Part shown: in pieces, positions 19,566 through 42,240 of the stretch
Numbering within the stretch: position 1 is the first letter of the stretch
Layout of the letters: each line of letters opens with the position of its first letter
NCBI RefSeq assembly: GCF_010692325.1
Contig: NZ_JAAHHW010000042.1
Coordinates: forward strand, 1 to 53,090
From: Moorena sp. SIO3I8
Lineage (GTDB): Bacteria > Cyanobacteriota > Cyanobacteriia > Cyanobacteriales > Coleofasciculaceae
DNA: 53,090 nucleotides
Direction: 5' to 3'
Notes under the pieces: model-generated
Seen by the model: the letters and a program-made list of their open reading frames with translations, nothing else
Told to the model about the DNA's origin: nothing
Database searches by the model: none
Position numbers and translations under genes: made by a program

Positions 19566-19597
19566 TATTGCTATATCCTATTTCTCGACCTATTCTT

Positions 19598-19626: not shown

Positions 19627-19739
19627 TGCAAAATGAAAGATAAAAACTTAATGATTAGACTTACCAGCTTTGAAAAAAGGCAACTTCAACAGGAAGCCGT
19701 TCGCGTAGCGTGACCTACGGTCAATCGTAGAGGGATGAC

Positions 19740-20010
19740 TTGCTCCGAATTACTCAGGAGCTTAATAGCTCGTTTCCCTGAGCCGAAAGACTCTGTGTAA
19801 AATTCATCCCTGGAGACGAAACCTGATTGTTAGTGGAGCCTTAATCAAAAAGTTTTAACCAAAGGTGCGCTTTCCGTAGGCGAATTAAATTCGCCACGGG
19901 TCGCACCTCTTTTACTCATAGCCGACTAACCATAAAGGCTCCACTATCCTTACGGTAACTTTAAACGCTCATCCTTGCGGATTGAGACGTGGGGCTTCTT
20001 TTACCGGACA
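19740..20010 (-). mobile_element. Solo IS605-like fragment carrying the conserved structured segment
   Basis: The region 19812-19965 repeats the organisation of 329-432: GGAGACGAAACCT, TAGTGGAGCCTTA, ATAAAGGCTCCACTA and GGTAACTTTAAA. Here the stem is interrupted by a 50-bp palindrome. Outward of it lie CAAGTCATCCC on the minus strand, matching CAAGTCACCCC of the first element, and GACGTGGGGCTTC near 19988-20000, similar to an IS left end. The right-end hairpin seen in the first element is missing, replaced near 19697-19725 by a GC-rich palindrome. It has no coding capacity. Confidence 0.5.
19860..19909. repeat. 50-bp hairpin element (copy 2)
   Basis: This is the same hairpin as at 12561-12610, differing at one position in the recognisable core (CCGTAGGCG against CCGTTGGCG). 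Without it, the surrounding segment is exactly as long (104 bp) as its counterpart at 329-432, so the insertion is again about 50 bp. The exact ends may shift by 1-3 bp. Confidence 0.8.
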
Positions 20011-20137
20011 GCTAACAAATGTGTTCGCCAAGTGTGGCGCTACCGGGTCAATGCCATGTCTTGATAATCTAATCCGATCTTATAGCCGATCGTTCAAAGT
20101 ATATCCTAGGGAAACAGTGACATAATAATTGTCTTCA

Positions 20138-23107: not shown

Positions 23108-23201
23108 GCTATGACTAAGTTTCGGAGTTTAGGAATGTCAAACACCTTAATTGGTAGTGCTATAAGCAATAAGAAATTGGGAAACAGAGGAGCGTGCGTC
23201 A

Positions 23202-24173
23202 ATGGCAATCAAAGCTTTCGTCACTGGAGGAACAGGATTTATCGGTGCTCATGTTGTGCGATCGCTACTTGAAGCAGGATACTCCGTGCGAGCTCTGGTG
23301 CGCCCTACTAGCCAACTCGATAACCTCCAGGGTCTAGATATAGAAGTCGTTATCGGTGACTTGAACGATCCAGGCTTGTGCCAACTGATGCAGGGATGTC
23401 AGGTATTATTTCATGTCGCTGCCCATTATTCCCTGTGGCAAGCGGATCGAGATTTACTCTATCGTAACAATGTCGAGGGAAGCCGTAATGTGCTACAAAG
23501 TGCTGGTAAAGCTGGGATTGAACGCACTGTTTACACCAGTTCAGTAGCGGCTATTGGTGTGGGTAAACCTGGGGAAATTGTGGATGAAACCCATCAGAGT
23601 CCTGTCGAGAAATTGGTGGGTGACTATAAAAAATCTAAGTTTTTTGCTGAACGTGAAGCGATCAAGGCAGCTCAATCTGGTCAAGATGTGGTGATTGTTA
23701 ATCCTAGCGCTCCCATTGGTCCAATGGATATTAAGCCAACTCCTACCGGAGAAATCATTGTGCGCTTCCTACAGCAGAAAATGCCATTTTATTTGGATAC
23801 GGGATTAAATTTTATTGATGTGCGGGATGTAGCTCAGGGTCACCTGTTGGCGTTGGACCGGGGGAAAAAAGGCGATCGCTATATTTTAGGTAACCAAAAT
23901 CTATCTTTCAAATCCTTATTGGAGCAACTTGCGGAAATTACTGGATTGAGTGCGCCTCAAAAAACTGTTCCGGTCTGGCTACCGCTGAGTATCGCTTGGA
24001 TTGATGAGTGCGTGTTGACTGCTTTCGGGAAAACCCCTTCTATACCGCTAAATGGGGTGCGGATGGCACAACACCCAATGTATTACGATGCCTCGAAAGC
24101 GGTTAGAGAGTTAGGGTTACCCCAATCTTCCATTAGGAAAGCCCTCAAGGATGCTGTTGATTGGTTTAGCTAA
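23202..24173 (+). CDS. hpnA: Hopanoid-associated sugar epimerase HpnA
   Basis: This 323-residue extended short-chain dehydrogenase has the NAD(P)-binding motif FVTGGTGFIGAHVVRSLLEAG at the N-terminus. The SSV...YKKSKFFAE part provides the catalytic Ser and Y-x3-K. The stretch HVAAHYSLWQADRDLLYRNN and the C-terminal GVRMAQHPMYYDASKAVREL are as in HpnA proteins. The next gene, hpnH, acts in the same pathway (side-chain extension of hopanoids to bacteriohopanepolyols). A GAGG ribosome binding site lies about 11 bp before the ATG. The 3' end runs straight into a GGGAACA repeat. Confidence 0.88.
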   Translation: MAIKAFVTGGTGFIGAHVVRSLLEAGYSVRALVRPTSQLDNLQGLDIEVVIGDLNDPGLCQLMQGCQVLFHVAAHYSLWQADRDLLYRNNVEGSRNVLQSAGKAGIERTVYTSSVAAIGVGKPGEIVDETHQSPVEKLVGDYKKSKFFAEREAIKAAQSGQDVVIVNPSAPIGPMDIKPTPTGEIIVRFLQQKMPFYLDTGLNFIDVRDVAQGHLLALDRGKKGDRYILGNQNLSFKSLLEQLAEITGLSAPQKTVPVWLPLSIAWIDECVLTAFGKTPSIPLNGVRMAQHPMYYDASKAVRELGLPQSSIRKALKDAVDWFS

Positions 24174-24174
24174 G

Positions 24175-24275
24175 GGAACAGGGAACAGGGAACAGGGAAC
24201 AGGGAGCAGCGGATCCCCCCTAACCCCCCTTAGTAAGGGGGGAAGGGAACAGCGGATCACCGGAACAGGGAACAG
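24175..24275. repeat. (GGGAACA)n array with CCCCCTAACCCCCCTTAGTAAGGGGGG palindrome
   Basis: Heptamers begin directly after the hpnA stop codon. They are interrupted at about 24214-24243 by a C/G-rich palindrome that recurs at 29147-29222 and 38048-38083. The array separates hpnA from hpnH by over 300 bp. Confidence 0.85.
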
Positions 24276-24507
24276 AAAGACTTTTGGCAGCTTTAAAAAA
24301 GTTAATACAGTTCCGTTTATTTATCTATCGGTACTTACCGCTGGCTCCAGTAAATAGGGAAACTTACAACTGTCGCGAAGTCTAGGATTTTAAGCAATTC
24401 ACCAACAGTATTATAAATTTATCGGCGAAGCTGGTCAAAGTTAAAGCTGTGGGGTAATCAGGATTACCCTCAATGATTAGCGTTAATTATATGGTGTGAG
24501 GACAATT

Positions 24508-25527
24508 ATGGCAATTCAATTACAACAAGCTCTTGATGTCGGAAAGTATATTGTTACCCAGCGTCTTTTGGGTCGTAAACGCTTTCCCCTGGTGCTGATG
24601 TTGGAACCTCTGTTCCGCTGTAATCTAGCTTGTTCCGGTTGTGGCAAAATCCAGCATCCTACGGAAATACTCAAGAGCCAGCTCACTCCTGAAGAGTGCT
24701 TTGCTGCGGTGAAAGAGTGTGGTGTTCCGGTGGTTTCTATTCCGGGGGGAGAACCTTTGCTTCATCCACAAATTGACGAAATTGTCAAGGGGTTGGTGGC
24801 ATGGCGAAAGTATGTCTATCTCTGTACTAATGGGTTGTTGTTAGAAAAGTGTCTGGATAAGTTCCAACCTTCCCCTTACCTGACTTTCAGCGTTCACTTG
24901 GATGGCTTACGGGAACGGCATGATCAGTGTGTGGACCGTCAAGGGGTATTTGATAAGGTGGTGCAGGCCATTCGGGCGGCTAAAGCTAGGGGATTTCGTG
25001 TGACTACTAACACGACGGTGTTTGAGGGAACTGATCCTAAGGAAATCCAGGAGTTCTTTGATTTCCTGGCCATGTTGGGTATTGACGGCATGATGGTTTC
25101 TCCTGGATATAGTTATGAATGGGCACCAGATCAGGAGCATTTCCTGAAGCGGGAACAGACTAAGGGGATGTTCCGGGAAATTTTAGCACCTTTGAAGGCT
25201 GGGAATAAAACCTGGAATTTTAACCATAATCCTTTATTTTTGGATTTCCTGATCGGGGAGAAAGATTACGAGTGTACCCCTTGGGGAAGTCCTAGTTACA
25301 GTGTTTTGGGGTGGCAAAAGCCTTGCTATTTGTTAAATGAAGGGCATTATGCCACTTTTAAGGAATTGCTGGAGGAAACGAATTGGGATCAGTATGGTCG
25401 CGCTAGTGGTAATCCTAAGTGTGCCGATTGTATGGTTCATTGTGGGTATGAGCCTACGGCGGCTATGGATGCGTTTCAGCCCCAGAATATGGTTCGTGCG
25501 ATGGGTAGTGTGTTAGGAGGAGTATGA
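24508..25527 (+). CDS. hpnH: Adenosyl-hopene transferase HpnH (radical SAM)
   Basis: This 339-residue radical SAM enzyme attaches adenosine to diploptene, the first step in C35 hopanoid synthesis. The cluster motif is CNLACSGCG (C-x3-C-x2-C) near residue 40, preceded by LMLEPLFR. Other family features are [37 protein letters not shown] and a C-terminal Cys set in [15 protein letters not shown]. The ATG at 24508 follows a GAGGAC ribosome binding site. An in-frame ATG at 24496 is also possible. It pairs with hpnA upstream, although repeats separate them; a hairpin terminator follows. Confidence 0.93.
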
Positions 25528-25673
25528 ACCTGACCAATTTCCGACACCATAAAGCTGGCGCTACTTCCTAGCTCTGAGTAGTGATGGATTGCTAAGCCTG
25601 GCAGGATAGACAAGGTCAACTTGAGCAACCTAAATGCGATCGCATTAATCTGAGCTTTCTGATTCTTGATTAA

Positions 25674-25703
25674 AATGACCTTGACATCAAGCTCAAGGTC
25701 ATT
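25674..25703 (+). terminator. Hairpin downstream of hpnH
   Basis: The 11-bp arms AATGACCTTGA and TCAAGGTCATT are separated by 8 nt and followed by an A/T-rich stretch. It lies about 150 bp after hpnH. A (GTTCCCT/GCTCCCT) heptamer array follows at 25730-25770. Confidence 0.5.
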
Positions 25704-25804
25704 ATTTCAAATGAATTGTGATAATTTTTGTTCCCTGTTCCCTGCTCCCTGTTCCCTGCTCCCTGTTCCCTTTGCTATTTAATGTGAAAGGCAAACCTTG
25801 AGAA

Positions 25805-26623
25805 TTAGGCAATAGAAAGATCAAGTATAGTCCGTGCTCGATCTCTTATCTCAGTTCTGCGCTGAATTGGTATGGCAAAGTAGTTAGTTGTTCGTCTAGG
25901 ATAATAATGGGACTCAATGAAGCATTCTTGACTTAATCCAGGCCCATTGTGTGCAACTCTATTAGGTACGAACAATTCATAACCATAATCATTTAACCAG
26001 GACACTATATCTGCTTTTGTAGATTTCCAATCATCCTCTTGGGATGGGGCACTTTCAAACATTATCACTGGACTATTTTTGGTAATGATAGTCTCACTTC
26101 CGCGAATAACGTCTAATTCAGCACCTTCCACATCAATCTTGATCACGTCAATGTCATCTGATGATACCAGGCTGTCTAAACGTACGATTGGAACTTTTAT
26201 TTCAACTGAAATTGATTTTTTATCTTCGCTAGGTTGCCTTAGGGAGCTATAGCCAGATTCTCTGGTATTTATATAGAAAGATACTTCTCCTTCTGTGTTG
26301 CCAACCGCATAGTTATGTACTTCTACGTCAGGAAACTTACTACGAAGTTTCCTGGCTTTATCGGGTATCGCCTCCACAGCAATAACTTTTATACTTGCAT
26401 CGTAATCAGATACTAAAGCTATAATTGAACCAATATGTGCCCCAACATCAATAAAAGTCTTGTTGTGATCACATAATTGAGTGACCAAACGTGTAGCGAT
26501 CTGATCGTTAATTATAGTTCCTAAACTTTCCGATTTAGTGACTGCCCCTTTTACCCTATCTATTTTATCACGGGTTGCCATTGCCAGTTTCCCAAGGAAA
26601 GTACCCAGAATTAGTTGCTTCAT
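25805..26623 (-). CDS. FkbM-family methyltransferase
   Basis: This 272-residue SAM-dependent methyltransferase has motif I FIDVGAHIGSIIALVSDY, an acidic loop AVEAIPDKARKLRSKFPD and the FkbM signature RLDSLVSSDDIDVIKIDVEGAE. Members O-methylate sugars, polyketides or other small molecules. The C-terminus (PNRVAHNGPGLSQECFIESH) is typical. It is a monocistronic gene with a gene-free kilobase upstream. The nearest candidate client pathways are the polysaccharide genes after 35 kb, so its substrate is open. Confidence 0.88.
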   Translation of the reverse strand: MKQLILGTFLGKLAMATRDKIDRVKGAVTKSESLGTIINDQIATRLVTQLCDHNKTFIDVGAHIGSIIALVSDYDASIKVIAVEAIPDKARKLRSKFPDVEVHNYAVGNTEGEVSFYINTRESGYSSLRQPSEDKKSISVEIKVPIVRLDSLVSSDDIDVIKIDVEGAELDVIRGSETIITKNSPVIMFESAPSQEDDWKSTKADIVSWLNDYGYELFVPNRVAHNGPGLSQECFIESHYYPRRTTNYFAIPIQRRTEIRDRARTILDLSIA

Positions 26624-26967
26624 TACGAGGTAGTTGGCTTTAGACCTTACCTACTACTATACAGTCTAACTTTGGGTCTTCCGGACAAAATGATGCTAAT
26701 TGAGCACAGAGCAACTCTAAATCTAATGCTGGCCAAGGATTTTGGGTATTTAGATATCCTAGACGAGTAAGAAACAAATTCTAAAAAAAATACATCTATA
26801 CAGAATAGTTATTTTAGCTGATCGTAAAAATTATAACCTCATAAATTAGAATTTTATTTATTTGTAAATGCTATATCTACAAACCAAACTATCTGGAAAA
26901 AACCAAATTATAATTAATCTAGTGTAAGCATTCAGCTATCAGTTTATGGGCTACGTTAAGTCCCAGC

Positions 26968-27066
26968 GTCGTTCGCACAGCGTGGCCAAACGCGCCCCGC
27001 GTGGCCTTTAGGCCAAGGCCAAAGCCTGTGCCACAAAGCTGTTCCCGTAGCGTGGCCAAGCTACGT
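26968..27066. repeat. Cluster of GC-rich palindromic repeats
   Basis: Several copies of the GTTCGCGTAGCGTGGCC-A-GGCC type are packed together, at about 26972-26990, 26991-27018 and 27043-27066, with a further copy at 27129-27158. They are GC-rich islands in otherwise A/T-rich sequence and overlap no coding frame. Confidence 0.75.
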
Positions 27067-27641
27067 GAATGGCCAAGGGTTTTTCTGTTGACTTTCAATT
27101 CTCATTCATCTATCAATATTAAATTCTTCCGTTCCCGTAGCGTGGCCATAGGCCAAACAGGTTTATTTTAAGCTGACGGCTGACAGCTGACGATATACTT
27201 TTCTTATTCCAAGAGGATTTTGATTAATTAATTCTTATCCAGAGTGTTGTATATTTGTGATGTTTATAGCAAAGACAGCAATTTGTCAAGCCCTCTTACC
27301 AAAACTTCACGGTCTTGCTCCCATCACCTGTGGGCTTGATATCCTCAATGGATTGTCTTTTTTGCGTAGCCTTGAAGGCCCTAGCCCTTCGGGCTAATCC
27401 CTCTCAAGTTCCTACACATAACTCATCAATTGTAAAGCAATTTTTAAATTACTGAAAATGGTGTCCTATTTGGCACTTATTTCGGCTTTACCCCTAACTG
27501 TTCAATATTAATTAAAAAAGGAAAAATTAAATCTCCGGATCTGGTTAAATTTGACGGTATAATTAAATCGTTAACTTTTTATTTAACTTTTTTAAAAATG
27601 GCTCTCCTAGTTGATATGCTGCTTGTGATGCCTATGCTCAA

Positions 27642-27779
27642 CCTATGGGCATTGAATCAATGTTTCGTGATTTTAAGAGTGGTGGTTATAACTTAGAGGC
27701 TACTAGAGTTAGCAATAAACGCTTAATTTATCTAATTTTATTGTTTTTTTTATACACAATAGCAAAGTTTTACGGATAA
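27642..27779 (+). pseudogene. IS4-like transposase remnant (C-terminal fragment)
   Basis: A 45-codon frame reads PMGIESMFRDFKSGGYNLEA followed by TRVSNKRLIYLILL. It matches the catalytic Glu region (E-x-x-F-R-D-x-K-...-G-Y-x-L-E) of IS4-family DDE transposases. Nothing of the N-terminal part is recognisable upstream. The frame ends at TAA 27777-27779, inside a palindrome. Confidence 0.65.
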
Positions 27780-27819
27780 ATAACCTAAAAAATGGGTAAT
27801 TTTTTAGGTTATTTATCCG
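27773..27819. repeat. 21-bp perfect inverted repeat, 5-nt loop
   Basis: The arms 27773-27793 and 27799-27819 are exact complements (CGGATAAATAACCTAAAAAAT and its reverse). It overlaps the stop codon of the transposase remnant, so it may be an IS terminal structure or a secondary palindromic insertion. Confidence 0.85.
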
Positions 27820-28379
27820 GTCTAAACTACAAGCTTAAACCCAATTATACAGCAGTTTTACTATTGAATGGCATGGTAAAAAATGGTTCAAATCGATGTA
27901 TTGTGTGGCAGAACTAATTCGATAATTACTTCGTTTTTATCGCCACAGCCCGATAATCTCAGAGGAATGAGGGCTGAAAACATGATACAGTCTGCCTTCT
28001 AGGACGACTTGTCGCCCCCGCAGCTATTTTACCCACACCCCACACCCGGTCAACCTACACCCTGTCTGCTTTTTAGCCTTGTTGTCACCTCCTCAGAATC
28101 TTCATCCCAAATTCATATAATTACGATTTATGATAATTTATTCGCAAACCAGTCTGAAGTAAAAAATGAAACTAGTATAAATTAAGTAGGTATATACATA
28201 TTAGTAGGGCGAAAGCACATAATGTATAACCCATATCCAGCACCCTAACTCTCACAATTGCTTATTTCGGTTTTTGATTCACAGTCAAAGTATTTTATAC
28301 AAATTAGATTAACTTTGGCTGGGATTCGACAGGAGTGCTGTATAAAAACATCCCCAAATAATTTCAAATAAATTATTTC

Positions 28380-29090
28380 ATGGCGACCAAACCTCAATCT
28401 AGCGAAATTCATTCTGGTATTGGATTTAGGATAAAAAAAAATATTACCAGATGCGATCGTAAATTATTGCAAAAATTATCTCAATTTGAGACTCCTGATA
28501 TTTCCGATATGATGAATCGTTTGTACACAATTAATCAAAATATCAAGAATTTAATTAACGATCAAAAAATTATAGGAACAGCTTGTACAGTAAAAGTATT
28601 CCCTGGCGATAATTTAATGGTTCACAAAGCTCTAGACATCGCTCAACCCGGGGACATCATTGTAGTTGATGGGGCTGGTAGTACAACCAACGGCATTATT
28701 GGTGACTTAATTGCAACCAAGGCTAAACATAGAGGAATTGCAGGGTTTGTGATTGATGGTATGATTCGAGATCTACCTGGTATTAAGGAAGTAGGAATGC
28801 CTGTATATGCAACGGGTGTGACTCCTATTGGTCCATTACACCGAGGACCAGGAGAAATTAATTTTTCCATTAACTGTGGCGGAATTGTCGTTAATCCCGG
28901 CGATATTATTTGTGGAGATTTAAATGGTTTAGTGGTCATTCGCCAAGAATTGGCCGAGGAATTATTAGAAAAATTACTTAGTAAAAAAGTAAGCCTTAAA
29001 AATTATATTGAAAATGTCAAAAAAGGGGAATTTAGCAATGATTGGGTTGACCAGATATTAAGCAAAAATAAATGTTGGATATCTGATTAA
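28380..29090 (+). CDS. RraA-family protein (HMG/oxaloacetate aldolase-decarboxylase superfamily)
   Basis: This 236-residue protein has the RraA fold hallmarks. These are DISDMMNRLY near residue 39, GTACTVKVFPGDNLMVHKAL, the metal/substrate loop GDLIATKAKHRGIAGFVIDG and the essential Arg-Asp in GMIRDLPGI. Enzymes of this superfamily catalyse retro-aldol cleavage of 4-hydroxy-4-methyl-2-oxoglutarate or decarboxylation of oxaloacetate with a divalent metal. Others are RNase E regulators without activity; the intact GDxxA...R-D set here favours an enzyme. It is the first gene of a co-directional set with the Ldh-type gene (307 bp later) and the A-T-TE synthetase. The set suggests a role in making or trimming a 2-keto acid. 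Specific activity cannot be assigned. Confidence 0.85.
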   Translation: MATKPQSSEIHSGIGFRIKKNITRCDRKLLQKLSQFETPDISDMMNRLYTINQNIKNLINDQKIIGTACTVKVFPGDNLMVHKALDIAQPGDIIVVDGAGSTTNGIIGDLIATKAKHRGIAGFVIDGMIRDLPGIKEVGMPVYATGVTPIGPLHRGPGEINFSINCGGIVVNPGDIICGDLNGLVVIRQELAEELLEKLLSKKVSLKNYIENVKKGEFSNDWVDQILSKNKCWISD

Positions 29091-29146
29091 TAAGCACCTA
29101 CACAGAATTAATTTGGAGCATGTCAAATTTGTAATTAGGTACATAT

Positions 29147-29222
29147 ATCCCCCCTAACTCCCCTTAAAAAAGGGGGGAATTAGATTGAAAAGTCCCCCTT
29201 ATTAAGGGGGATTTAGGGGGAT
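29147..29222. repeat. CCCCCTAACTCCCCTT...GGGGG palindromic repeat
   Basis: Two facing copies of the C/G-rich palindrome (CCCCCCTAACTCCCCTTAAA and ...TTAAGGGGGATTTAGGGGG) are separated by a short spacer. They occupy the gap between the RraA-like and Ldh-type genes. The family is dispersed in this window and may act as a hairpin in a polycistronic mRNA. Confidence 0.8.
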
Positions 29223-29396
29223 CTGAATCAGGGATTAACAAAACTGACATGCACCCAATTAATTTCCTACTGCCAATCTCTGTAACCCTTACCATGCAAG
29301 GCTTTAAATTTTGTAAAATGTGTAATTAATTTTGTGTACCTGCTTATTTTAATTAAATTATTTATGTTAAAAAAATGAACTAAAATCGCGTTAAAA

Positions 29397-30449
29397 ATGG
29401 ATTCATTTATTAGAGTTGATCCGGAAAAACTACAGGAATTTATTAATGATATTTTATGTGCTGAGGGTATCGACGCGCATGAAGCCCTGATAATTGCTAA
29501 AATCTTTGTCTGGTTCGATCTAATTGGTAGAACTACTCAAGGTGTGGCTCGCTTGCCAGCCTATTTAGAACGATTCAGAAAGCATCTGATTAAATCACCC
29601 TGTGTTCCCAAATTTATTCAAAAATCGGCAACTATTAATTTAGTGGATGGTCACGATGGTTTTGGTCATTATCTAGGCCATGTATCCATGTTAAAAGCAA
29701 TAGAGATAGCCAATAAATATGGAGTTGGCATGGTGCTAGTTAGCCATAGCAACCATTTTGGAGCCGGTGCTTATTACGTTCAGTTAGCAGCACAAAATTC
29801 ACAGCTTGGTTTAGCATTTAGTAACTCTTTTCCTCATGTTGCTCCTTATGGTGGAGTTACAGCAGTTTTAGGAACTAATCCTTTTGCTTTTGCTGCACCT
29901 GTGAGAAATAAAAACTCCATAATTGTAGATTTTTCAACTGGTGCAACGGCAGGTTCGGTATTGAGAAAAACTGTAGAAAATAATCAAAAAATTACTGAAG
30001 GAATTTTGATTGATGAAAACAGTAATGCGATAGTTGATCCTCGAAAAGCTGCACAGGGAGTTATCTTACCCTTTGGTGGTGCTAAAGGATTTTGTTTAGG
30101 TTTAATGGTGGAAATTATTAGTGGTGTGATTAGCGGATCAGGGATTTCCCATGAAATAGCATCTATGTATAAAAACTTCGACAGAAGTGCTAATGTGGGA
30201 CATTTTTTTATGGCAATTGATATTTCTAAAATCATGCCTATGGTTGATTATTATCAACGGCTAGAGACCTTAATTTCATTCATTCAAACTGCCAAAACAA
30301 GCAATGATTTTGAGGAAATCATTCTTCCTGGTGAAACCAGATGGCGTAATTATGCAGAACAATTAGATCGAGGAATTTCTCTGGAAATAAAAACCGTTAA
30401 AATTTTAAAAGAATTAGCAAAACACTTAAACATCAAAAATTATTTTTAG
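29397..30449 (+). CDS. Ldh-family NAD(P)-dependent 2-hydroxyacid/2-keto acid oxidoreductase
   Basis: This 350-residue protein belongs to the malate/L-sulfolactate/ureidoglycolate dehydrogenase (Ldh_2) superfamily, not the Rossmann lactate dehydrogenases. Signature stretches are DLIGRTTQGVARLPAYLERF (substrate part), VDGHDGFGHYLGH, the nucleotide region VLVSHSNHFGAGAYYVQLA, SNSFPHVAPYGG and GTNPFAFAAPV. The C-terminal GGAKGFCLGLMVEIISGVIS is also typical. It interconverts a 2-hydroxy acid and its keto acid. It ends 19 bp before the A-T-TE synthetase, which strongly suggests one operon and a role in supplying or consuming the synthetase's acid. The substrate cannot be read from sequence. Confidence 0.88.
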   Translation: MDSFIRVDPEKLQEFINDILCAEGIDAHEALIIAKIFVWFDLIGRTTQGVARLPAYLERFRKHLIKSPCVPKFIQKSATINLVDGHDGFGHYLGHVSMLKAIEIANKYGVGMVLVSHSNHFGAGAYYVQLAAQNSQLGLAFSNSFPHVAPYGGVTAVLGTNPFAFAAPVRNKNSIIVDFSTGATAGSVLRKTVENNQKITEGILIDENSNAIVDPRKAAQGVILPFGGAKGFCLGLMVEIISGVISGSGISHEIASMYKNFDRSANVGHFFMAIDISKIMPMVDYYQRLETLISFIQTAKTSNDFEEIILPGETRWRNYAEQLDRGISLEIKTVKILKELAKHLNIKNYF

Positions 30450-30468
30450 TTATTTTTTATAAACAATA

Positions 30469-33171
30469 ATGTTCAAAAAAAAAACATTTAAAGAGTTTAA
30501 AAAAGAAGACATTGAACAGTCCGTTCCAGACCGCTTTAGACAACAAGTCAAGCTATATTCCCACCGACTAGCAATTAAATATAAAAAGCAACAGCTAACC
30601 TACGAGCAACTAAATAAAATTTCCAATCGCATCGCGGCGGCCATTATCTCCAAATGTGGTCAAAAAGAAGGGGCAATCGCCCTTTTGTTTGAACCCGGTA
30701 TCATGGCAATCACCGCAATTTTGGGTTCTTTAAAAGCCGGTAAAATTTGGGTTCTTTTGGATGCTTCGCTTCCGGAAATCAGACTCAACTATATACTAGA
30801 GGATTCCCAGACAATTATGATTGTTAGTAACAATCATAATTCTTTACTCGCTGAAAAACTTGCTCAAAATTCTTGTCAATTACTTAATCTCGATTCTGCA
30901 ACTTCAGGCTACTCTGATCAAGATTGTGACTATAGTGTCTCCCCAGATTCTCTTGCTTATATTCTTTATACATCAGGCTCTACAGGAAAACCCAAAGCTG
31001 TTGTCCAGAATCATCGCAACATACTCCATGCCATTAGATTGCATACCAATTCTCTTCACCTTTGCTCAGGCGATCGCTTATCTCAGCTATCCACATATGC
31101 TCACCTATCTGGATTAACAGCTATTTTTAGAGCTTTACTTAATGGTGGAGCAGTTTTTCCCTTCAATATCAAACAGGAAGGGGTTGAGCAATTAGCAGAC
31201 TACTTAATTGAAGAGGAAATAACGGTTTATCATTCTGTACCTACAGTATTTCGGCATTTTATCAATACTCTGACAGGTAAAAAAGAATTTCCTAATCTAC
31301 GGTTGATTCACTTGGGAGGAGAAAGTGTCTCCATTCGAGACGTAGAACTGTACAAACAACACTTTTCTCCAAATTGTATCCTTCTCAATAATCTCGGTTC
31401 TACAGAAGTAGGTACTTACGGACATTATTTTATTAATCAAAAAACCCAGCTTACTGGTAACATTGTCCCTGTCGTTTGTAACTTAGAAGATAAAGAAGTT
31501 CTATTGCTCGATGAGGAAGGAAAAAAAGTTAGGGAAAACTGTATAGGGGAAATCGCAGTTAAAAGTCCTTATCTTGCTCTGGGTTATTGGCGTAAACCCC
31601 ATCTTACCAAAGAAAAATTTAGATCAGAAATAGAAGGTAATTCAAGGATTTATTTAACCGGGGATTTAGGTCGTTTATTACCTGATGGAAGCCTTGAATA
31701 TCTCGGACGTAAGGACTTGCAGGTAAAAATTAGAGGTCAAAGAATTGAAATTGCCGAGATTGAGTTAAAAATCCTCGAACATCGATCTATAAAAGAAACT
31801 GCCGTTATTACAGCAGACGATCGCTTTGGGGACAAACAATTAGTGGCTTATGTAGTTGTATCACCGGATAAAAATGAGCCTCCTAGTTCTTTAAAATTGC
31901 AAAATTTTCTTATTGATAAACTGCCCCAATATATGATTCCATCAACCTTTATTTTATGGGAATCGCTACCCCATAACTCTAGTGGTAAAATTGATAGAAA
32001 AGCATTACCTGAACCAGATTTTAAAGCAAATATACAAGAGCAATTTATTGCACCTCGGAATGAAACAGAAATTAAATTAACCCAAATTTGGCAAGAAGTT
32101 TTAGGAATTAAGAAAGTAGGAATCAATCATAACTTCTTTGAGTTGGGTGGTCACTCCTTGCTGGCAGTGCGCTTAGTTGCAGAAATAGAAAAAGTTACTC
32201 AGACAAAATTGCCGTTGGCCGCCCTATTTCAATTTACAACCATTGAGGAAATTGCCAGTCTTCTCAAAGAACCAGAAGTAGCAGATAACCCTAACCCTAA
32301 TCTATCTCCAGAGTTGTTACCACTGGATACAGATGACCTTCGCGCCTTGTTAACTATTGTAGCTGGTCGAGAAGGAGCACGACCCAGACCGGATTCTCTA
32401 ATGGTTACTATCCGTCCCACAGGGGTGAAGCCACCGCTGTTTTATTGCGCTAATGGTGTCGGGGAAATATCTACTCTTGCCCGCTATTTAGGTGAGGAGC
32501 AACCAGTTTATTTCCTAGAATCTGGTTCCGTGGTTATCGGTAAAAAAGGCCAACCGACACAGAATAATATTAAAGCGATCGCCGCTAGTCACGTTCGCGA
32601 TATCCTGGAGGTATATCCCACTGGACCAATACTGTTAACAGGATATTCTTTTGGGAAAAATGTAGCTTATGAAGTTGCCAAGCAACTACAAGAGCGCGGA
32701 AAGAAAGTGGCTTTTCTAGCTATATTAGATACTTGGGGTTCGGGACAGATGTATCGCTACTATCTGCAAAGAATAGAGCCGGCTCTGGTGGCAATGAAAA
32801 AGGAATTATTACGTGGTTCGTTAGTGTCTTGTGCTCAACAGTTAGGCTCGTTGCTCTGGGAAGTAAAAGACAATTTAACAGTACAAAAGTCTATGTCTGC
32901 TGTGGGAGCGAATCAAGGAGAGTATCTGATCCAAGGCTACTCGGGTAAAATTACACTCTTCCTGACTCGGGTTGCTCATGATCACCGTTACAACATTAAA
33001 ATTCGGCGTTGGCTGTTTCCGTTAATGGGTTGGGAGGAACACGTTGTCGATCTAATCAGAGTTCCTGGGAAGCATCATACTATGATAATGGAACCTCATG
33101 GGCGGGTGTTAGCAGAGAAATTAAAAATGTGCATTGATCAGGCTTTGGCTGCTGAAGCTGATCGTGAGTAA
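30469..33171 (+). CDS. NRPS-like synthetase, domains A-T-TE
   Basis: This 900-residue single-module protein has an adenylation domain (about 15-510) with A1 LTYEQLN, A3 YTSGSTGKPKAVVQNHR, A7 YLTGDLGRLLPDG, A8 GRKDLQVKIRGQRIEIAEIE and A10 NSSGKIDRKALP. A carrier domain follows (FFELGGHSLLA, phosphopantetheine Ser near 563). The thioesterase (about 640-895) has the nucleophile in GYSFG near 725 and His in GKHHTM. No condensation domain is present. In the A4 region (STYAHLSGLTAIFRALLNGG) the usual Asp that binds an alpha-amino group is not evident. A-T-TE enzymes of the atromentin/ralfuranone type activate 2-keto acids and couple them through the TE. That, plus the neighbouring Ldh and RraA genes, makes a 2-keto or 2-hydroxy acid substrate plausible. 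The A domain closely resembles the first A domain of the NRPS at 49 kb. Confidence 0.9.
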   Translation: MFKKKTFKEFKKEDIEQSVPDRFRQQVKLYSHRLAIKYKKQQLTYEQLNKISNRIAAAIISKCGQKEGAIALLFEPGIMAITAILGSLKAGKIWVLLDASLPEIRLNYILEDSQTIMIVSNNHNSLLAEKLAQNSCQLLNLDSATSGYSDQDCDYSVSPDSLAYILYTSGSTGKPKAVVQNHRNILHAIRLHTNSLHLCSGDRLSQLSTYAHLSGLTAIFRALLNGGAVFPFNIKQEGVEQLADYLIEEEITVYHSVPTVFRHFINTLTGKKEFPNLRLIHLGGESVSIRDVELYKQHFSPNCILLNNLGSTEVGTYGHYFINQKTQLTGNIVPVVCNLEDKEVLLLDEEGKKVRENCIGEIAVKSPYLALGYWRKPHLTKEKFRSEIEGNSRIYLTGDLGRLLPDGSLEYLGRKDLQVKIRGQRIEIAEIELKILEHRSIKETAVITADDRFGDKQLVAYVVVSPDKNEPPSSLKLQNFLIDKLPQYMIPSTFILWESLPHNSSGKIDRKALPEPDFKANIQEQFIAPRNETEIKLTQIWQEVLGIKKVGINHNFFELGGHSLLAVRLVAEIEKVTQTKLPLAALFQFTTIEEIASLLKEPEVADNPNPNLSPELLPLDTDDLRALLTIVAGREGARPRPDSLMVTIRPTGVKPPLFYCANGVGEISTLARYLGEEQPVYFLESGSVVIGKKGQPTQNNIKAIAASHVRDILEVYPTGPILLTGYSFGKNVAYEVAKQLQERGKKVAFLAILDTWGSGQMYRYYLQRIEPALVAMKKELLRGSLVSCAQQLGSLLWEVKDNLTVQKSMSAVGANQGEYLIQGYSGKITLFLTRVAHDHRYNIKIRRWLFPLMGWEEHVVDLIRVPGKHHTMIMEPHGRVLAEKLKMCIDQALAAEADRE

Positions 33172-33223
33172 TCTTTAGTTGACAAGCAGCAGTTACAGTG
33201 GTAAGTCAGACCTTACAGTTCAC

Positions 33224-33607
33224 CTAAAATTTAAATCCTAATAAATTCCAAGAATTTAGGAGCCAGATAAATAGCCATGCCGCTAGCATACTCAAACAAT
33301 AATACCCTCGTCTGATCCAAGACCAGTTTTTGTCTCTCCAAGCCAGTAAACCAATAATCGATACTATAGTACTCAAGCCTGTGGTCACAATGGGTAGATA
33401 AAGTAACGCAATCATCACAGGGGGCATTCCGAAGAAAAATTCCCAGAAATCTATTGTACTAATAGCTATCCCCATTCCCATCAAAAAGCATAAATTTAAA
33501 ACACTAATCAGACCAATGATCAACTCCACTAGACGAGTATGTCGTGAAACTAGAGCTAAAGTTTTATTTTTGCGGCTAATTAATAGTCTAATTAGCCAAA
33601 CTAAACA
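33224..33607 (-). pseudogene. C-terminal membrane domain of the serine hydrolase, cut off by an in-frame TGA
   Basis: Reading continues in the same frame directly after the TGA at 33610-33608 of the upstream hydrolase frame. It begins CLVWLIRLLISRKNKTLALV and contains about three more hydrophobic segments, ending in SWNLLGFKF. Exporter-type or CubicO-like serine hydrolases often carry such a helical tail. A start at 33529 could express 101 residues alone. The simplest reading is one original gene of about 680 residues with a nonsense mutation. Confidence 0.75.
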
Positions 33608-35266
33608 TCACCATAGGAAGATTATCACACAAAATACCACCAGTCCAAGCTGTAAAACAAGAGTTTCGTACCAGGGTAACTTTTCATAGGTTAAATGGAC
33701 ATGACTACTCATAGACATACCAGTAATTTTACCCTGACTATCTGGCCGAAAATTTATATACATATTGCTATCAGTAGCGCGAAATAGGAGTGGCTCTACT
33801 TCCTCCCATTTACTTCTTCCTGGAAATATAGTTAATGTGTGGTCTTGATTAGTTTTAATAGTAAATAATCGTCCAGATTCAAGCAAAACAATTGCTAACT
33901 TAACCAGGTATTTTCGAGGATATCGAATAAAGCGATAGCCGCCATTAATTTGTTTATATTGCTGTTTATACTGCTGGGGAATATTAGCTTCAGGGATAGC
34001 TTCAGGGATAGCTTTAGTAATAATTTCGGTAGGTGATGCAATGGTCTCCTGTACAGGATAATAACGATCTAAAAACTGTTGAACCAAGTCGTCTCGCAAA
34101 TTCTCATTAAGACTGTTACGATTGTAAGCAATATAGAAACCTAACTTTTGTTCTGGAATTAAAAACACCAGATTAGTATACCCTGACATGCTACCGCCAT
34201 GTTCAATTATCCGTTGATTATTCACAAAGCGCTCAAAAAAACCATAAGTAGATCCTGCGGCTTGAGGAATGTTCGGAAAATTAGTATAGTGTTGGCGGTG
34301 CATCTCCTTTACTGTAGTGTCATTCAGGATACGCTGTGTACCATAACGACCTCCCTGTAAATGAGCAATCATAAAGTGAGCCATGTCTTCAGCAGTAGTA
34401 GTTAAAGCTGTAGTAGGAACACTTTTATTACAGGTAAAGGGTTGCTTTATATAATTGCCATTTTTGTACTGATATCCCACAGCTAAGTTAGCTGCCAGCT
34501 GAGACGGTAATGGTTGCTGAAAACTACTTTGACTCATATCCAGAGGCTGTAGGATAGTTTGGTCAATATATTCACTGAAAGGAATTCCAGCAACCACTTC
34601 TACTAAGTAACCTGCCAATGCTAATCCCACATCACCATAAACATATAATTCACCTGGTGGTCGCACTCGCTCTGGTAGATTTTCTCTGATAAATTTTTCT
34701 AAGGATAGCAGCTTAGACTGGCAACGAGTGGCTCCGCCAATCACCCAAGCTACATCGAATCCATCAGTATGAGTTAAGAGATGATCAACTGTAATTGGCT
34801 TAAATTGATCAGTCTTGATTTTAAATTCCTTAAGATACTGGTTAATATCTTGATTTAGCTTAAGCTTACCTTGCTCGACTAGTTGCATTACTGCTGTAGA
34901 GGTAACTAGTTTAGATACAGAGCCTACACGAAACAGAGTTTTGTTAGGAATAACCGGTATCTTATCCTCAAGGTTAGCGTAGCCGTAGCCTTTTGAGAAG
35001 ATAATTTTGTCATCTTTTACTAAGGTAAATACCGCACCAGTAAGATTATTTTCTGTAATTTGATTTACAAAAAAATTGTCACTAAATTCTTCTATATCAT
35101 GGAATTTAGTTAGTTCTAACTGGGAATCATCGGCTGTAGATACCATAGGCAAATCCCGGTTAGATACATCCTGAGCAAATACGGGCAGTACAGAAACACT
35201 AACAATCAAGATAGCTAAACTTATTGATTGAATCAGCTTTAATAATCTATCTAATGTTTTTTTCAC
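33608..35266 (-). CDS. Serine hydrolase, beta-lactamase class C/CubicO family
   Basis: This 552-residue exported protein has a signal peptide (SISLAILIVSVSVLPVFAQ). The penicillin-binding fold follows, with the nucleophile motif SVSK in LFRVGSVSKLVTSTAV (about residue 118), a Tyr motif in YVYGDVGLALAGYLVEV (about 210) and HGG in IIEHGGSMSGYTNLV (about 345). The residues after about 430 form a separate beta-rich part and then one membrane helix (ETLVLQLGLVVFCVIIFL), where a TGA ends the frame. The catalytic domain is complete, so activity is possible. The membrane tail is truncated relative to what the downstream frame encodes. Family members hydrolyse D-amino peptides or small esters; no substrate is indicated. 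The start lies next to a heptamer array. Confidence 0.88.
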   Translation of the reverse strand: MKKTLDRLLKLIQSISLAILIVSVSVLPVFAQDVSNRDLPMVSTADDSQLELTKFHDIEEFSDNFFVNQITENNLTGAVFTLVKDDKIIFSKGYGYANLEDKIPVIPNKTLFRVGSVSKLVTSTAVMQLVEQGKLKLNQDINQYLKEFKIKTDQFKPITVDHLLTHTDGFDVAWVIGGATRCQSKLLSLEKFIRENLPERVRPPGELYVYGDVGLALAGYLVEVVAGIPFSEYIDQTILQPLDMSQSSFQQPLPSQLAANLAVGYQYKNGNYIKQPFTCNKSVPTTALTTTAEDMAHFMIAHLQGGRYGTQRILNDTTVKEMHRQHYTNFPNIPQAAGSTYGFFERFVNNQRIIEHGGSMSGYTNLVFLIPEQKLGFYIAYNRNSLNENLRDDLVQQFLDRYYPVQETIASPTEIITKAIPEAIPEANIPQQYKQQYKQINGGYRFIRYPRKYLVKLAIVLLESGRLFTIKTNQDHTLTIFPGRSKWEEVEPLLFRATDSNMYINFRPDSQGKITGMSMSSHVHLTYEKLPWYETLVLQLGLVVFCVIIFLW

Positions 35267-35296
35267 TAGTTTTAGATTTGATAAATTTTTGATAAA

Positions 35297-35438
35297 AGGG
35301 AATCGGGAATCGGGAATCGGGAATCGGGAATCGGGAATCGGGAATCGGGAATCGGGAATCGGGAATCGGGAATCGGGAATCGGTAATCGGTAATCGGTAA
35401 TCGGGAATCGGGAATCGGGAATCGGGAATCGGGAATAG
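35297..35438. repeat. (GGGAATC)n heptamer array, about 20 copies
   Basis: This is one of the longest pure arrays in the window, with a short block of GGTAATC variants near 35383-35402. It lies just upstream of the serine hydrolase ATG, within about 30 bp, so its promoter must be inside or beyond it. A second array of CAACCTT/CAACATT-type heptamers fills 35530-35690 and runs into the 3' end of wzt. Confidence 0.92.
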
Positions 35439-35677
35439 TAAAGCTAAATCTGTTACCTCTTGCCTATTACCTGTCCCTTCAACAGTCAACCAACCTACCC
35501 TACGGGAACGCCAAAGGCGAACAACAGTCACCCAACATTCAACTTTCAACAGTCACCCAACCTTCAAAATTCAACTTTCAACCAACATTCAACTTTCAAG
35601 CAACATTCAACCTTCAACCTTCAACCTTCAACAGTCAACATTCAACCTTCAACCAACCTTCAACCTTCAACCAATCT

Positions 35678-36904
35678 TCAACCTTCAACAATATCCCAAC
35701 GAAGCGGTGGGCTAATAATACCTTTTTCGCTTTTATTTGAACGGACTAAAAAGTTATAAACACGCAAATGGTAGTCATAGGTATAAGCCCGATTTGGTTC
35801 ATAAACCCCAACATCAACAAAATACTTACCACTGTTTAAATCTAAGCGAGATAGATGGAGTTTTATTTTTCCTTTACCTTTAATAACTGGTAATGATTCT
35901 CCCATGGTAGTTGTGTTAGTCTCAAGACAGATTTGACCATCTTCAGTACTAATGAGGACACTAAAAATTAGTCCATCAATTGCTTGAGGTGAAAAGTACT
36001 CAATGTCAATGGCTAAGGAATCACCACTATTAATCTCTAAGCTAGGTAACAGCAACACATCGGTAATTTCTACTTCTAGAGAGCCAAAGCGGTTTTCATT
36101 CATGCGCAGTTCCACACCAGACCTAGTCAGTTGGGCAGGTCTGTTGGGAGTAGGTTGCTGGGTTTGCGATCGCATTTGATTGACATACTGTCCTGCTACC
36201 ACTTTTGGCTCACCGTAAGCCATGATTTGTCCTTGTTGTAGCCACAAAGCGCGATCGCAAAGTTGCTCAATTTGCTCGCTACTGTGAGAAATTAGGACAA
36301 TAGCACAGCCAGACTCTTTCAACTGAGCAATTCGTTCCAAGCACTTAGCCTGAAATCTCAAATCCCCAACTGACAGAAACTCATCAACTAGCATCACATC
36401 TGGGTCTGTGTGGACAGCCACCGAAAACGCCAGCCGCATCTGCATCCCTGTACTATAAGTGCGCACTGGGTTATCGATAAACTGCTCAAGTTCAGCAAAC
36501 GTCACGATTTCATCGAAACGCCGCCCCACCTCTTCACGAGTAAGACCTGCTACCACACCACTAACAAAAGCGTTTTCTCGCCCAGTCAAATCTGGATGGA
36601 AACCAGCGCCCAAATCCAGCAGCGCTCCAATGGAGCCATTAACCGTAACCTTCCCTTTATCGGGTTTTCCAACCCCACCAATCAAGCGCAACAGGGTTGA
36701 TTTACCTGCCCCATTGTGACCGAGAATGCCTAGCATCTGGCCTGGGGAAACCGTGAAAGTAATATTCCGCAACGCCCAAAACCCTTCCGCTGCCATAATA
36801 TGCCGAAAACCCGACAGCGCCGCCTCCATAATGGTAAGCGGTCGCTCAGGATGATAGTAGTTAAAGCGTTTACCGAGTCCTTGAACAATAATTGCATCAA
36901 CCAT
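35678..36904 (-). CDS. wzt: Polysaccharide ABC exporter ATP-binding protein, Wzt-like
   Basis: This 408-residue protein has an ABC ATPase half with Walker A GHNGAGKSTLLRLIGGV, signature YSTGMQMRLAFSVAV, Walker B PDVMLVDEFLSVGD and the H-loop LISHSSEQI. The C-terminal part (about 255-400) is beta-rich (LRMNENRFGSLEVEITDVLL), like the Wzt carbohydrate-binding domain that recognises the capped end of a glycan. With the permease directly upstream it would export a lipid-linked polysaccharide across the inner membrane. The ATG follows the permease stop codon with no gap, and the GGAGG ribosome binding site is inside the permease's last codons, so translation is likely coupled. Confidence 0.92.
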   Translation of the reverse strand: MVDAIIVQGLGKRFNYYHPERPLTIMEAALSGFRHIMAAEGFWALRNITFTVSPGQMLGILGHNGAGKSTLLRLIGGVGKPDKGKVTVNGSIGALLDLGAGFHPDLTGRENAFVSGVVAGLTREEVGRRFDEIVTFAELEQFIDNPVRTYSTGMQMRLAFSVAVHTDPDVMLVDEFLSVGDLRFQAKCLERIAQLKESGCAIVLISHSSEQIEQLCDRALWLQQGQIMAYGEPKVVAGQYVNQMRSQTQQPTPNRPAQLTRSGVELRMNENRFGSLEVEITDVLLLPSLEINSGDSLAIDIEYFSPQAIDGLIFSVLISTEDGQICLETNTTTMGESLPVIKGKGKIKLHLSRLDLNSGKYFVDVGVYEPNRAYTYDYHLRVYNFLVRSNKSEKGIISPPLRWDIVEG

Positions 36905-37747
36905 CTATAATTCCTCCACAAAGCGATCGCTCTGCCACCGGAAAATTTGAAGACCTATAGGTAAAAACACTGCCGTGACCAAAGCCATAACTAGCAGAGC
37001 TAGCCAATCCGGTGGTGTTCCTTTAATTAGTACAGCGCGATAGGCGGTAACCAGATGCACCATCGGGTTAATGTAATAGAAAAACTGGTAATTTTTGGGC
37101 ACATTAGTAATTTCATAAAAAATAGGTGTGAGATAAAAAAACAGCTGTAGAAGTACACCGATAGTATGCTGGGTGTCGCGAAATATTACATTAAGCCCAG
37201 CTAGTATATAGGCTAAACTAATGGTAACGGAAAACTGGAGAGCTTGTAGGATTGGTAACAGTATAATTACTGGCTGTAGCTGAACACCATCGATTAACAG
37301 AAAGATAACTAATATTGGCAGGGCTAGAATAAAGTGAATCAGACCTGTTGTTACGGTAACCACCGGTAAGATAGCGTTGGGAAAACCCGGTTGTCGGATC
37401 AGGGGGCGATTACTAATAATCACCCCAGTGGCTTGGAAAAGAGAATTACTAAACCATGTCCATACCAACAAACCCGAAAATGCAAAGGAGGTATATTGAG
37501 GAATATCAACCGACAATACAAAACGGAAAACAAAGGAAAATACAGCTAGCTGGAGTAGTGGATTAAGCAGCATCCAAGCTACTCCTAAAACTGACCGTTT
37601 GTAGAGTAGCTTCATCTCCCGATTAACTAGCTCTCGTAGCAAATCATAAAGATAATAAAACCGCCACTTAGACAACGTTTTGATGTTGGATTTTCGATTT
37701 TTTATTGAAGACATTGGAGTAATATAGCATTTTAAAGCAGTTTTCAA
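36905..37747 (-). CDS. wzm: Polysaccharide ABC exporter permease, Wzm-like (ABC-2)
   Basis: This 280-residue membrane protein starts with a cytoplasmic N-terminus (LYDLLRELVNREMKLLYKRS), then VLGVAWMLLNPLLQLAVFSF. Six predicted helices include a characteristic region FYLTPIFYEITNVPKNYQFF and INPMVHLVTAYRAVLIKG. This is the ABC-2/TagG pattern of O-antigen or teichoic-acid exporters. It forms the transmembrane dimer for the downstream wzt product. Start codons at 37747 and 37714 (MSSIKNRKSN) are both possible. Confidence 0.9.
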   Translation of the reverse strand: MKTALKCYITPMSSIKNRKSNIKTLSKWRFYYLYDLLRELVNREMKLLYKRSVLGVAWMLLNPLLQLAVFSFVFRFVLSVDIPQYTSFAFSGLLVWTWFSNSLFQATGVIISNRPLIRQPGFPNAILPVVTVTTGLIHFILALPILVIFLLIDGVQLQPVIILLPILQALQFSVTISLAYILAGLNVIFRDTQHTIGVLLQLFFYLTPIFYEITNVPKNYQFFYYINPMVHLVTAYRAVLIKGTPPDWLALLVMALVTAVFLPIGLQIFRWQSDRFVEEL

Positions 37748-38120
37748 TTGGTTTATGTACTTTAGTCCTGGGTTTTAGGGAGCAGGGAGCAGGGAGCAGG
37801 GAGCAGGGAGCAGGTAAGAGTAGATAATAAAGCCTGGTTTATATATTTTAAATGCTATATTTATAGTTTTGTTTACTGTAATTAAGCAGTCAATAAAAGC
37901 TTGACAGGGCTTTATTTAACCGATTGTGCTTTCAAGTTTTAGTTATTAAAAAAAAATATTAAAACATTGATGAAATAAAAGTTTCAGTCTTTGGCTGAGA
38001 TTACAGTGTTTTTCATAACTATGAGGTACACAAGATTTTTTCACTCTTGCCCGCCCCCCTTACTAAGGGGGGTTAGGGGGGATTCCTCTTGCCTCTTGCC
38101 TCTTGCCTCTTGCCTACTCC
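37748..38120. other. Gene-free interval with heptamer arrays and C/G-rich palindrome
   Basis: (GGGAGCA)n lies at 37777-37813. The CCCCCTTACTAAGGGGGGTTAGGGGG palindrome is at 38050-38080. (GCCTCTT)n and (CCCTACT)n arrays follow at 38089-38135, running into the 3' end of the next gene. A/T-rich sequence between them probably includes the wzm promoter. Confidence 0.7.
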
Positions 38121-40781: not shown

Positions 40782-40794
40782 AACCGAAAATTCC

Positions 40795-41861
40795 TTATAT
40801 CATCAGCAGTGAACGGTGTAATAAATTTCCAAGCAAGAGCTTGAAATATAGACTACCTCGGCGTTTCGTTAAATCCGCATAACTGACTGATAAACCCGGT
40901 TTATTAACATAATTATCAGATTTCAGCTTAGTGATCATTCTAAATATGCTTTTAATGAACAAAAAATACAACCCATAGCGAAAAATAGGCGTTATAAAAT
41001 CCGCTTTCAAAGCTTGAGATAGCCAAAATAACGTACTGCGATCGCTACTACACTGACTACTTTGTCGTGCCAAATACATATAAAAACTACTCTTAGACAA
41101 TCGATAAAGTGCTGCTGGAATCTCCGGATGCCTTTGTTGAACGTCACCTAGCATCAAACCATGAGACTTAGCCATTTGGCTGTAGTCGCGAGACATACTA
41201 CTAACAATCTTGCGATAGCCAATCATAAATTCTGGCACAACAGCAAATTCATAATGTTCTGCAATGCCCAGATAGAGCTCCCAATCCTCACACCCCTGAG
41301 CCTGTTGTGCGTTCAATTGACAGTTGTAGCCACCCACGGTCTCAAAACAACAGGCGCGAATCACAGATGCACTAGCATTGCCTAAAAAGTTATGACATAC
41401 CAGAGTTTTATAAACCTTTCCCTCTATAGTTGAAGCACGGAAATCTCCAGTCAGTGAATTTTCTTCATTAATATCCACCGACCAAGCATAAACCAACCCT
41501 ACCGCTGGATCGGTTGCCAAGAAGCGTTTAACTTGCTTTTCTAAATTTTGCGGATACCAAATATCATCAGCATCCAGGGGAGCAATATAATCTCCCTTCG
41601 CGTTTTTAATCCCTAAATTACGAGCAGCAGCCACCCCTAAATTTGGTTGTTGTAGTAAACACGCTGATCGTCCTCAGCAATAGATTGAACAATCTCAGCT
41701 GTGCGGTCTTGAGAACCGTCATCTACCACTATCACTTCCAGGTTTTTATAGGTCTGAGAAAGAACAAACTGTAATGTGATTTCAATAAACTGCTCTGTAT
41801 TATAGGCAGGGATAATCACTGAAACCAGTGGTAAGCTATCAACTGTTTTAACAACCGACAT
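40795..41861 (-). pseudogene. GT2 glycosyltransferase, split by a 1-nt frameshift
   Basis: The first frame (41861-41637) gives the GT-A start [20 protein letters not shown] and [16 protein letters not shown], and stops after VYYNNQI. The second frame (from about 41650 to 40795) continues [20 protein letters not shown] and the DXD motif APLDADDIWYP. One inserted base near 41652-41656 (for example CAACAACC from CCAACAACC) would join them into one protein of about 354 residues. All motifs are otherwise intact, so the break is recent or a sequencing error. It precedes the double GT2 by 13 bp and should belong to that operon. Confidence 0.8.
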
Positions 41862-42240
41862 TTGGTGATTTAAATTTTATATCTATACTTTTCACAGAGA
41901 TAAACTGAGTTTTTAATTTAGCTATCAGCGTTTAGCTATATCAAATGGGCTGACTATCCGCTGACTGCTGATACCGGATTGCTGACTGCTCAACCTGTAG
42001 ACACAACCTCTATTACAAGTACAGAGTTACTCAGTCAATTCAGGACTTTTTGAAAAAAAAATCCCTACTAGGGATTATTCGGTAGTTTTGTTAAAGCCAA
42101 TCAACGAGTTAGTTTAATTTATTATCAACTGATAATTTTAACTAAACTAATGTTAAACTATTGGAGGGTATTATTGAGATGCAGAGTAACGATTTAATCT
42201 CAAAATATCAATCAGTAATTGAAGGTAAATTTTCTAAAGA
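41862..42240. other. Divergent gene-free interval, 379 bp
   Basis: It separates minus-strand and plus-strand glycosyltransferase operons and should hold both promoters. A short stem (ATCCCT / AGGGAT, 42061-42075) is preceded on the + strand by nine A residues. On the minus strand it is therefore hairpin-plus-T-run, shaped like an intrinsic terminator or attenuator in the leader of the split GT2 gene. GCTGACTG-type short repeats are at 41950-41992. Confidence 0.5.

Follow-up and report, generated by a model that had tools for sequence, protein, structure and literature searches.

The window is a stretch of 53,090 nucleotides from Moorena sp. SIO3I8 (contig NZ_JAAHHW010000042.1, positions 1 to 53,090; genome G000, 8.0 Mb in 510 contigs). 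We examined a locus within it at which an RraA-like protein, an Ldh_2-type 2-hydroxyacid dehydrogenase (Ldh) and a single-module synthetase with adenylation, thiolation and thioesterase domains (A-T-TE) are encoded in a genomic island. The main features are as follows:

28380..29090, + strand: RraA-like / HMG-CHA-aldolase-like protein, 236 aa (Pfam RraA-like, 3.1e-48)
29397..30449, + strand: Ldh_2 family 2-hydroxyacid dehydrogenase, 350 aa (Pfam Ldh_2, 2.1e-94)
30469..33171, + strand: A-T-TE single-module synthetase, 900 aa (Pfam AMP-binding 1.2e-57, PP-binding 1e-16, Thioesterase 5e-14)
25708..33218, no strand: genomic island, by genome alignment absent from same-genus genomes G399 and G401 and with other content in same-genus G400
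27615..27776, + strand: 54-aa remnant of an IS4-family transposase, lying some 100 bp inside the left-hand exchange boundary near 27517

All three open reading frames (ORFs) are intact and full length. The ORF list and a Pfam scan of seven neighbourhood proteins bear out the gene identities and the shared strand given in a preliminary description of the locus, and the ORF coordinates confirm that the A-T-TE gene starts 19 bp after the Ldh stop codon. That description also called the locus compact, which holds for Ldh and A-T-TE but not for RraA and Ldh, whose 306-bp spacing contains a repeat. The repeat is a palindromic GGGGG/CCCCC element (29150-29250) with a terminator-like score on the minus strand. 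Promoter-like sites showed no excess over shuffled sequences (18 observed versus 20.9), and terminator-like sites numbered nine against 5.6.

A chimeric synthetase in a variable island

The alignment of G399 and G401 with the window breaks off at 25709 and 25707 and resumes at 33222 and 33219, with 60 and 64 bp between the two blocks, which constitutes an empty site. G400 aligns to window positions 9979-25702 and 32067-43855, where blocks of at least 500 bp are 90-98% identical (unaligned gaps in this flank match lie at about 11.7-13.2 and 18.3-20.0 kb), and between the matching flanks it carries about 11 kb of nonribosomal peptide synthetase (NRPS) genes. These encode an acyl-ligase-like A-T protein (635 aa), a protein resembling phosphoenolpyruvate mutase and isocitrate lyase (278 aa) and a 3018-aa NRPS ending in condensation (C), A, T and TE domains. 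One and the same island holds either the cassette of IS4 remnant, RraA, Ldh and A domain or the roughly 11 kb of NRPS genes. With two empty sites, a multimodular NRPS and a chimera at the same place in four close genomes, the event can be traced at close to single-base resolution.

The synthetase itself records the exchange in the following features:

30514..32028, + strand: A domain without Asp235, the part not common with G400 (alignment, tree)
31105..31107, + strand: Leu213, equivalent of GrsA Asp235 (alignment)
32129..32150, + strand: T-domain crossover region, at FFELGGHS (DNA identity to G400)
32155..32157, + strand: Ser563, site of phosphopantetheine attachment (LGGHS motif, residues 559-563)
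32359..33168, + strand: TE domain common to the G400 NRPS (triad candidates by motif: GYSFG Ser727, Asp754 and His869/870)

Per 30-nt bin, DNA identity to G400 is 0.43-0.70 over 31701-32120, rises to 0.80 at 32121 and reaches 1.00 at 32151. Past that point most bins lie at 0.83-1.00, with two dips in the TE (four bins at 0.63-0.70) and one bin at 0.80. The common tract starts at residues 554-555, directly ahead of FFELGGHS. The window TE is 81% identical to the G400 TE over 274 aa; the 22 other TEs compared with it share 24-35% over 215-313 aa or 34-43% over 118-129 aa. The window protein groups with G400 in the TE tree (support 100/98) and with Asp235-less domains in the A-domain tree (100/97), so that the two trees are discordant. 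The A-T-TE is a natural chimera, in which an A domain is fused within the T domain to the terminal T-TE also present in G400.

Natural NRPS recombination is described in the available portion of PMC8097286 as mostly swapping parts of A domains and mostly keeping the A-sub/T interface, with one noted exception in which a piece of the T domain was exchanged as well. The window A domain keeps its own A-T linker and interface. GC content at third codon positions (GC3) is 0.36-0.37 in the window T-TE, 0.38 in the G400 NRPS and 0.28 in the window A domain. Because the GC3 of the T-TE lies nearer that of the G400 NRPS than that of the window A domain, it favours, without proving, a swap in which the NRPS came first; G400 could instead be the derived state.

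Two smaller observations concern the island. L037 and L038 (G400:C8) make up the G400 NRPS island, and comparable ligase-like A-T proteins open NRPS loci in G404 and G405. In a tblastn comparison with plasmids, NRPS matches had 29-32% identity among the matches listed (20 of 2282 records).

Substrate, partner genes and alternative explanations

The preliminary description had reported that the A4 region lacks the aspartate that binds the alpha-amino group, and sequence alignment agrees, with Leu213 at the position of Asp235; the surrounding A4 stretch is as long as that of 46-50% identical relatives, which carry Asp. Read at what we take to be the GrsA column positions, the nine-residue code is L-S-T-H-I-L-N-T-Y. 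In a midpoint-rooted tree built from 56 A domains, after four acyl-CoA-ligase-like rows had been removed from a set of 60, the window A domain is sister to 20 other cyanobacterial A domains with support of 100/97. Asp235 is absent from all 21 members of this clade (Leu in twelve, Ala in four, Gly in three and Met in two), whose rows are mutually related. The clade A domains are N-terminal, starting at residues 2-93 of their ORFs (the start at residue 2 belongs to a piece of a split gene in G614), and none of these ORFs has a C-domain match ahead of the A domain; the window A domain starts at residue 16 of the 900-aa protein, again with no C-domain match. Fourteen of the 21 are A-T-TE proteins or pieces of them, namely twelve from family f6 (ten intact, two split), the window's and that of G491, with a partial TE match. 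The other seven are loading modules, one of which lies in the window itself at 49114. The seven tree rows next to the clade all have Asp235, six after a C domain and one (G392) N-terminal. An aliphatic residue at position 235 is typical of keto-acid A domains in the accessible text of PMC10949194. Judged from these alignments, the substrate of the A-T-TE is probably not an ordinary amino acid but another acid. The clade, with its mostly cyanobacterial A-T-TE genes, is also a directly assayable set.

Active-site residues of the two partner proteins were located by motif search and alignment:

28704..28772, + strand: D109-x20-R130-D131 motif of the RraA-like protein (motif search)
29538..29540, + strand: Gln48 of Ldh, at the family's invariant active-site His, His44 in AllD (alignment)

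The first of these contains the catalytic Arg-Asp pair that had been noted in the RraA-like protein. Its D-x20-R-D spacing is the motif of HMG/CHA aldolase, a class II pyruvate aldolase. The protein passes the NCBIfam model of the general subfamily PRK06201 (243.8 versus a cut-off of 231) and falls below the HMG/CHA equivalog cut-offs (PRK09262, 154 versus 179; ligK, 134.8 versus 304.5). Its nearest solved structure is 3NOJ (6.3e-32), and the alignment stops at 3NOJ residue 189, short of the metal ligand Glu-199. Roles of Arg-123 and Asp-124 are described in PMC5065237. Ldh is the sole match of its kind in the genome. Its predicted model has a predicted local distance difference test score (pLDDT) of 80 with best fold matches to 1v9n and 2x06, and it scores below all five listed NCBIfam equivalog cut-offs.

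Our confidence in the following reading is evenly balanced. It starts from what the genome comparison shows, an A domain linked inside the T domain to a T-TE that is also found in G400, which yields a one-module enzyme. This enzyme would activate a carboxylic acid that has no alpha-amino group; a 2-hydroxy or 2-keto acid is the likeliest candidate, and Ldh would make or interconvert it. RraA might act as a pyruvate aldolase that produces a 4-hydroxy-2-keto acid. The TE, common to a peptide NRPS, would release the product as a free acid, lactone or short ester. We infer the identity of the acid, its supply by RraA and Ldh, and the mode of release. A bolder version, which we regard as unlikely, has an incoming aldolase, dehydrogenase and starter A domain together capturing the resident T-TE through a crossover at FFELGGHS, with a lactone or oligoester made from an aldol-derived 2,4-dihydroxy acid. 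In that version, a locus for a peptide assembly line would have become, in a single natural step, one for a small-molecule synthetase, and the wider Asp235-less A-T-TE clade would represent a new family of cyanobacterial synthetases for hydroxy or keto acids. No described pathway that pairs RraA with an NRPS biosynthetic gene cluster was found in the open-licence literature, in line with the preliminary description.

Several observations weigh against the favoured reading. A conserved three-gene cluster is rejected. Among 388 genomes at the order level (A clade at E<=1e-100, with three candidates scored per genome, so that its count is a lower bound), the A clade occurs in at least 47, Ldh in ten and RraA in nineteen, and the trio whose shared neighbourhood the preliminary description had proposed to look for occurs together in none of the 387 genomes other than the window's. 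The trio being present in one genome of 388, conservation lends the pathway no support, an outcome that the preliminary description itself had named as refuting its proposal; this weakens the pathway claim and leaves the A-T-TE itself untouched. Gene pairs found elsewhere are on different contigs as listed (Ldh and RraA in G597, A and RraA in G392 and G441, A and Ldh in G705). At the family level Ldh is found in one of 20 genomes, the window's, and RraA in three, with identities of 46% over 143 residues and of 28% in the other two. Neither RraA nor Ldh occurs in any other genome represented in the Asp235-less tree clade. In Ldh, Thr-Gln-Gly replaces the Ser/Thr-His-Gly seen in all 21 aligned relatives (20 Ldh loci were used, and L006 and L030 gave no row); in a second alignment of 14 rows, with L030 added, the active-site His is at least 90% conserved. 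The accessible text of PMC3527362 calls His44 and His116 of AllD invariant in the Ldh_2 family, and reports that kcat/Km falls from 54.3 to 0.10 in H44A and that activity is undetectable in R48A and H116A. The window protein retains Arg52 and His120, the equivalents of AllD Arg48 and His116, and is therefore altered yet, by prediction, not obviously dead. Also on this side are the repeat-bearing gap between RraA and Ldh and the low GC3 of RraA (0.27), Ldh (0.24) and the A domain, which fits one source and is not diagnostic, because the syntenic neighbour at 33608-35266 is also low (0.29). As for Asp235, it does not by itself settle the substrate, since HcaB, a proposed keto-acid A domain in the same portion of PMC10949194, retains it and four rows elsewhere in our tree, two of them N-terminal, have Ser at that position. 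A predicted structure of the A domain from a two-row alignment reached a pLDDT of 43 and was not used further.

RraA and Ldh may be unrelated catabolic genes carried in the cassette, which would leave the A-T-TE gene as the only synthetase gene; we consider this doubtful. RraA-like genes occur in two (L030, L032) of ten distant Ldh_2 loci of 3.7-17 kb, near genes that look by eye like TRAP transporters, an A domain occurs in just one of the ten (L031), and the 306-bp gap fits the same picture. Set against this, Ldh and A-T-TE are only 19 bp apart and all three genes lie on one side of the crossover, in a stretch absent from G400. A close donor of Ldh was sought and rejected: the contig scan gave ten loci at 28-32% identity, by six exact peptide patterns that miss more distant kin, and class-level matches besides the window's own are at 25-30% identity, in ten of eleven positive genomes. 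The locus could instead be non-functional debris, a recombination product heading for loss, which seems to us unlikely. The trio stands in one genome only, an IS remnant is present, the invariant His of Ldh is replaced, and the ratio of nonsynonymous to synonymous substitution (dN/dS) of the T-TE pair of window and G400 is 0.64, compared with 0.12, 0.45, 0.49 and 0.26 in four flanking genes and 0.23 for the second NRPS of the window against that of G399. On the other hand, none of the three ORFs is truncated, the A, T and TE motifs are intact, and the dN/dS excess may be that of G400, because the window's branch in the TE tree is the shorter (0.061 versus 0.18, with a very distant outgroup and a long-branch warning).

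The remaining alternatives concern the substrate. One is that the A domain, though it lacks Asp235, activates an amino acid of an unusual kind, such as a beta- or N-modified one. In its favour, the seven nearest rows outside the clade, which keep Asp235 with the code DAxHVLxF, share His and Leu at positions 4 and 6 with the window. The absence of Asp235 from every clade member and of any preceding C-domain match makes it distinctly unlikely. The preliminary description had likened the protein to A-T-TE synthetases that condense 2-keto acids (atromentin, terrequinone and ralfuranone type), whose TE joins two such acids into a quinone or furanone by Claisen-type dimerisation. Atromentin, polyporic acid and ralfuranone synthetases share the domain order and the lack of Asp235, and the window's aliphatic residue there fits this type. 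The likeness is weakened by a TE held in common with the terminus of a multimodular NRPS and by Leu at code position 1, where the fungal enzymes have Val, called a mark of keto-acid enzymes in fungi in the part of PMC10316625 available; this separation comes from descriptions, not sequence alignment. No aminotransferase is encoded among the seven neighbourhood proteins scanned. We do not favour a keto-acid-dimerising synthetase on these sequence grounds, and think it very unlikely. Overall, the observation that opened this analysis is confirmed and its interpretation partly supported.

Other features of the window

Within the island, a further gene and the IS4 remnant lie to the left of RraA:

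25805..26623, - strand: FkbM-type methyltransferase (Pfam Methyltransf_21, 6.1e-26)

The methyltransferase has no alignment in the compared stretches of G400, G399 and G401. The IS4 remnant matches, at 47% identity, part of another ORF in the genome, which is 375 aa long and passes NCBIfam transpos_IS4_2 in a 361-aa ATG/TTG-started form (293.5 versus 152); for a 49-aa piece of the remnant, Pfam gave no match at 0.01.

A second NRPS region occupies 47178-52953. Its ORFs at 47178-47516 and 47486-47947, which have no Pfam match, are a single ORF in G399 (245 aa) and G401 (288 aa). An Asp/Glu-racemase-like protein follows at 47916-48929 (Pfam, 32.6 versus 31), and after it an NRPS starter module with code GGRFIINPV, where Asp235 is also absent. 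A like arrangement with code AGRFIVNPI occurs in four f6 genomes (G703, G681, G334 and G375), a separate racemase-like ORF not being listed for G375. The NRPS at 49114-52953 ends at 1279 aa within its second A domain, as it does in G399 (dN/dS 0.23 between the two), and its G401 counterpart is a 2097-aa A-T-C-A-T protein. At 43465-43863 lies a 132-aa fragment of an FAD/NAD-binding oxidoreductase; from the same start, the matching region of G399 carries an ORF of 489 aa.

Comparison with known systems

A possible parallel lies in fungal synthetases of the enniatin type, where a hydroxy-acid A domain without Asp235 works with a separate ketoacid reductase. MysE (Ava_3855), from shinorine biosynthesis, has the domain order A-T-TE. 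This cyanobacterial NRPS-like enzyme attaches an amino acid, according to the text available of PMC3252866, so the A-T-TE order need not mean keto acids. Its partners, a DHQS homologue, an O-methyltransferase and an ATP-grasp ligase, are not among the seven neighbourhood proteins scanned.

Close in architecture are the Nostoc-type A-T-TE proteins of family f6 (ten intact, of 903-936 aa). They have the window's domain order, and their A domains belong to the same Asp235-less clade and are 46-51% identical to it. Their code is LGLHVLSTF in eleven of twelve and MGRHLFGTV in G628, compared with LSTHILNTY in the window, and their TEs are only 29-35% identical to the window TE. None of the twelve f6 stretches has an RraA or Ldh match, and eight have a TPR-like neighbour by eye. 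The split genes are in L098 (G178), where a 372-aa ORF intervenes, and L114 (G614).

The partner proteins are likewise related to known enzymes at the family level. HMG/CHA aldolase (3NOJ) has its family in common with the RraA-like protein, which stays under the equivalog cut-offs, and the Ldh_2 enzymes 1v9n, 2x06 and AllD share family and fold with Ldh, which has Gln in place of AllD His44. In A-KR-T keto-acid modules (hectoramide and others), Asp235 is typically replaced by an aliphatic residue, as in the window (PMC10949194, in the portion available). Those modules carry a ketoreductase (KR) domain, whereas the window protein has none and the separate Ldh_2 enzyme could carry out the reduction instead. 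Lastly, the junction coincides with the motif that NRPS engineers chose for fusions: XUT III/IV constructs, as presented in the accessible part of PMC12668312, are joined within FFxxGGxS of the T domain, like the window protein. Those fusions are engineered, whereas the window's junction is natural and links a terminal T-TE to an A domain that stands at the N terminus.

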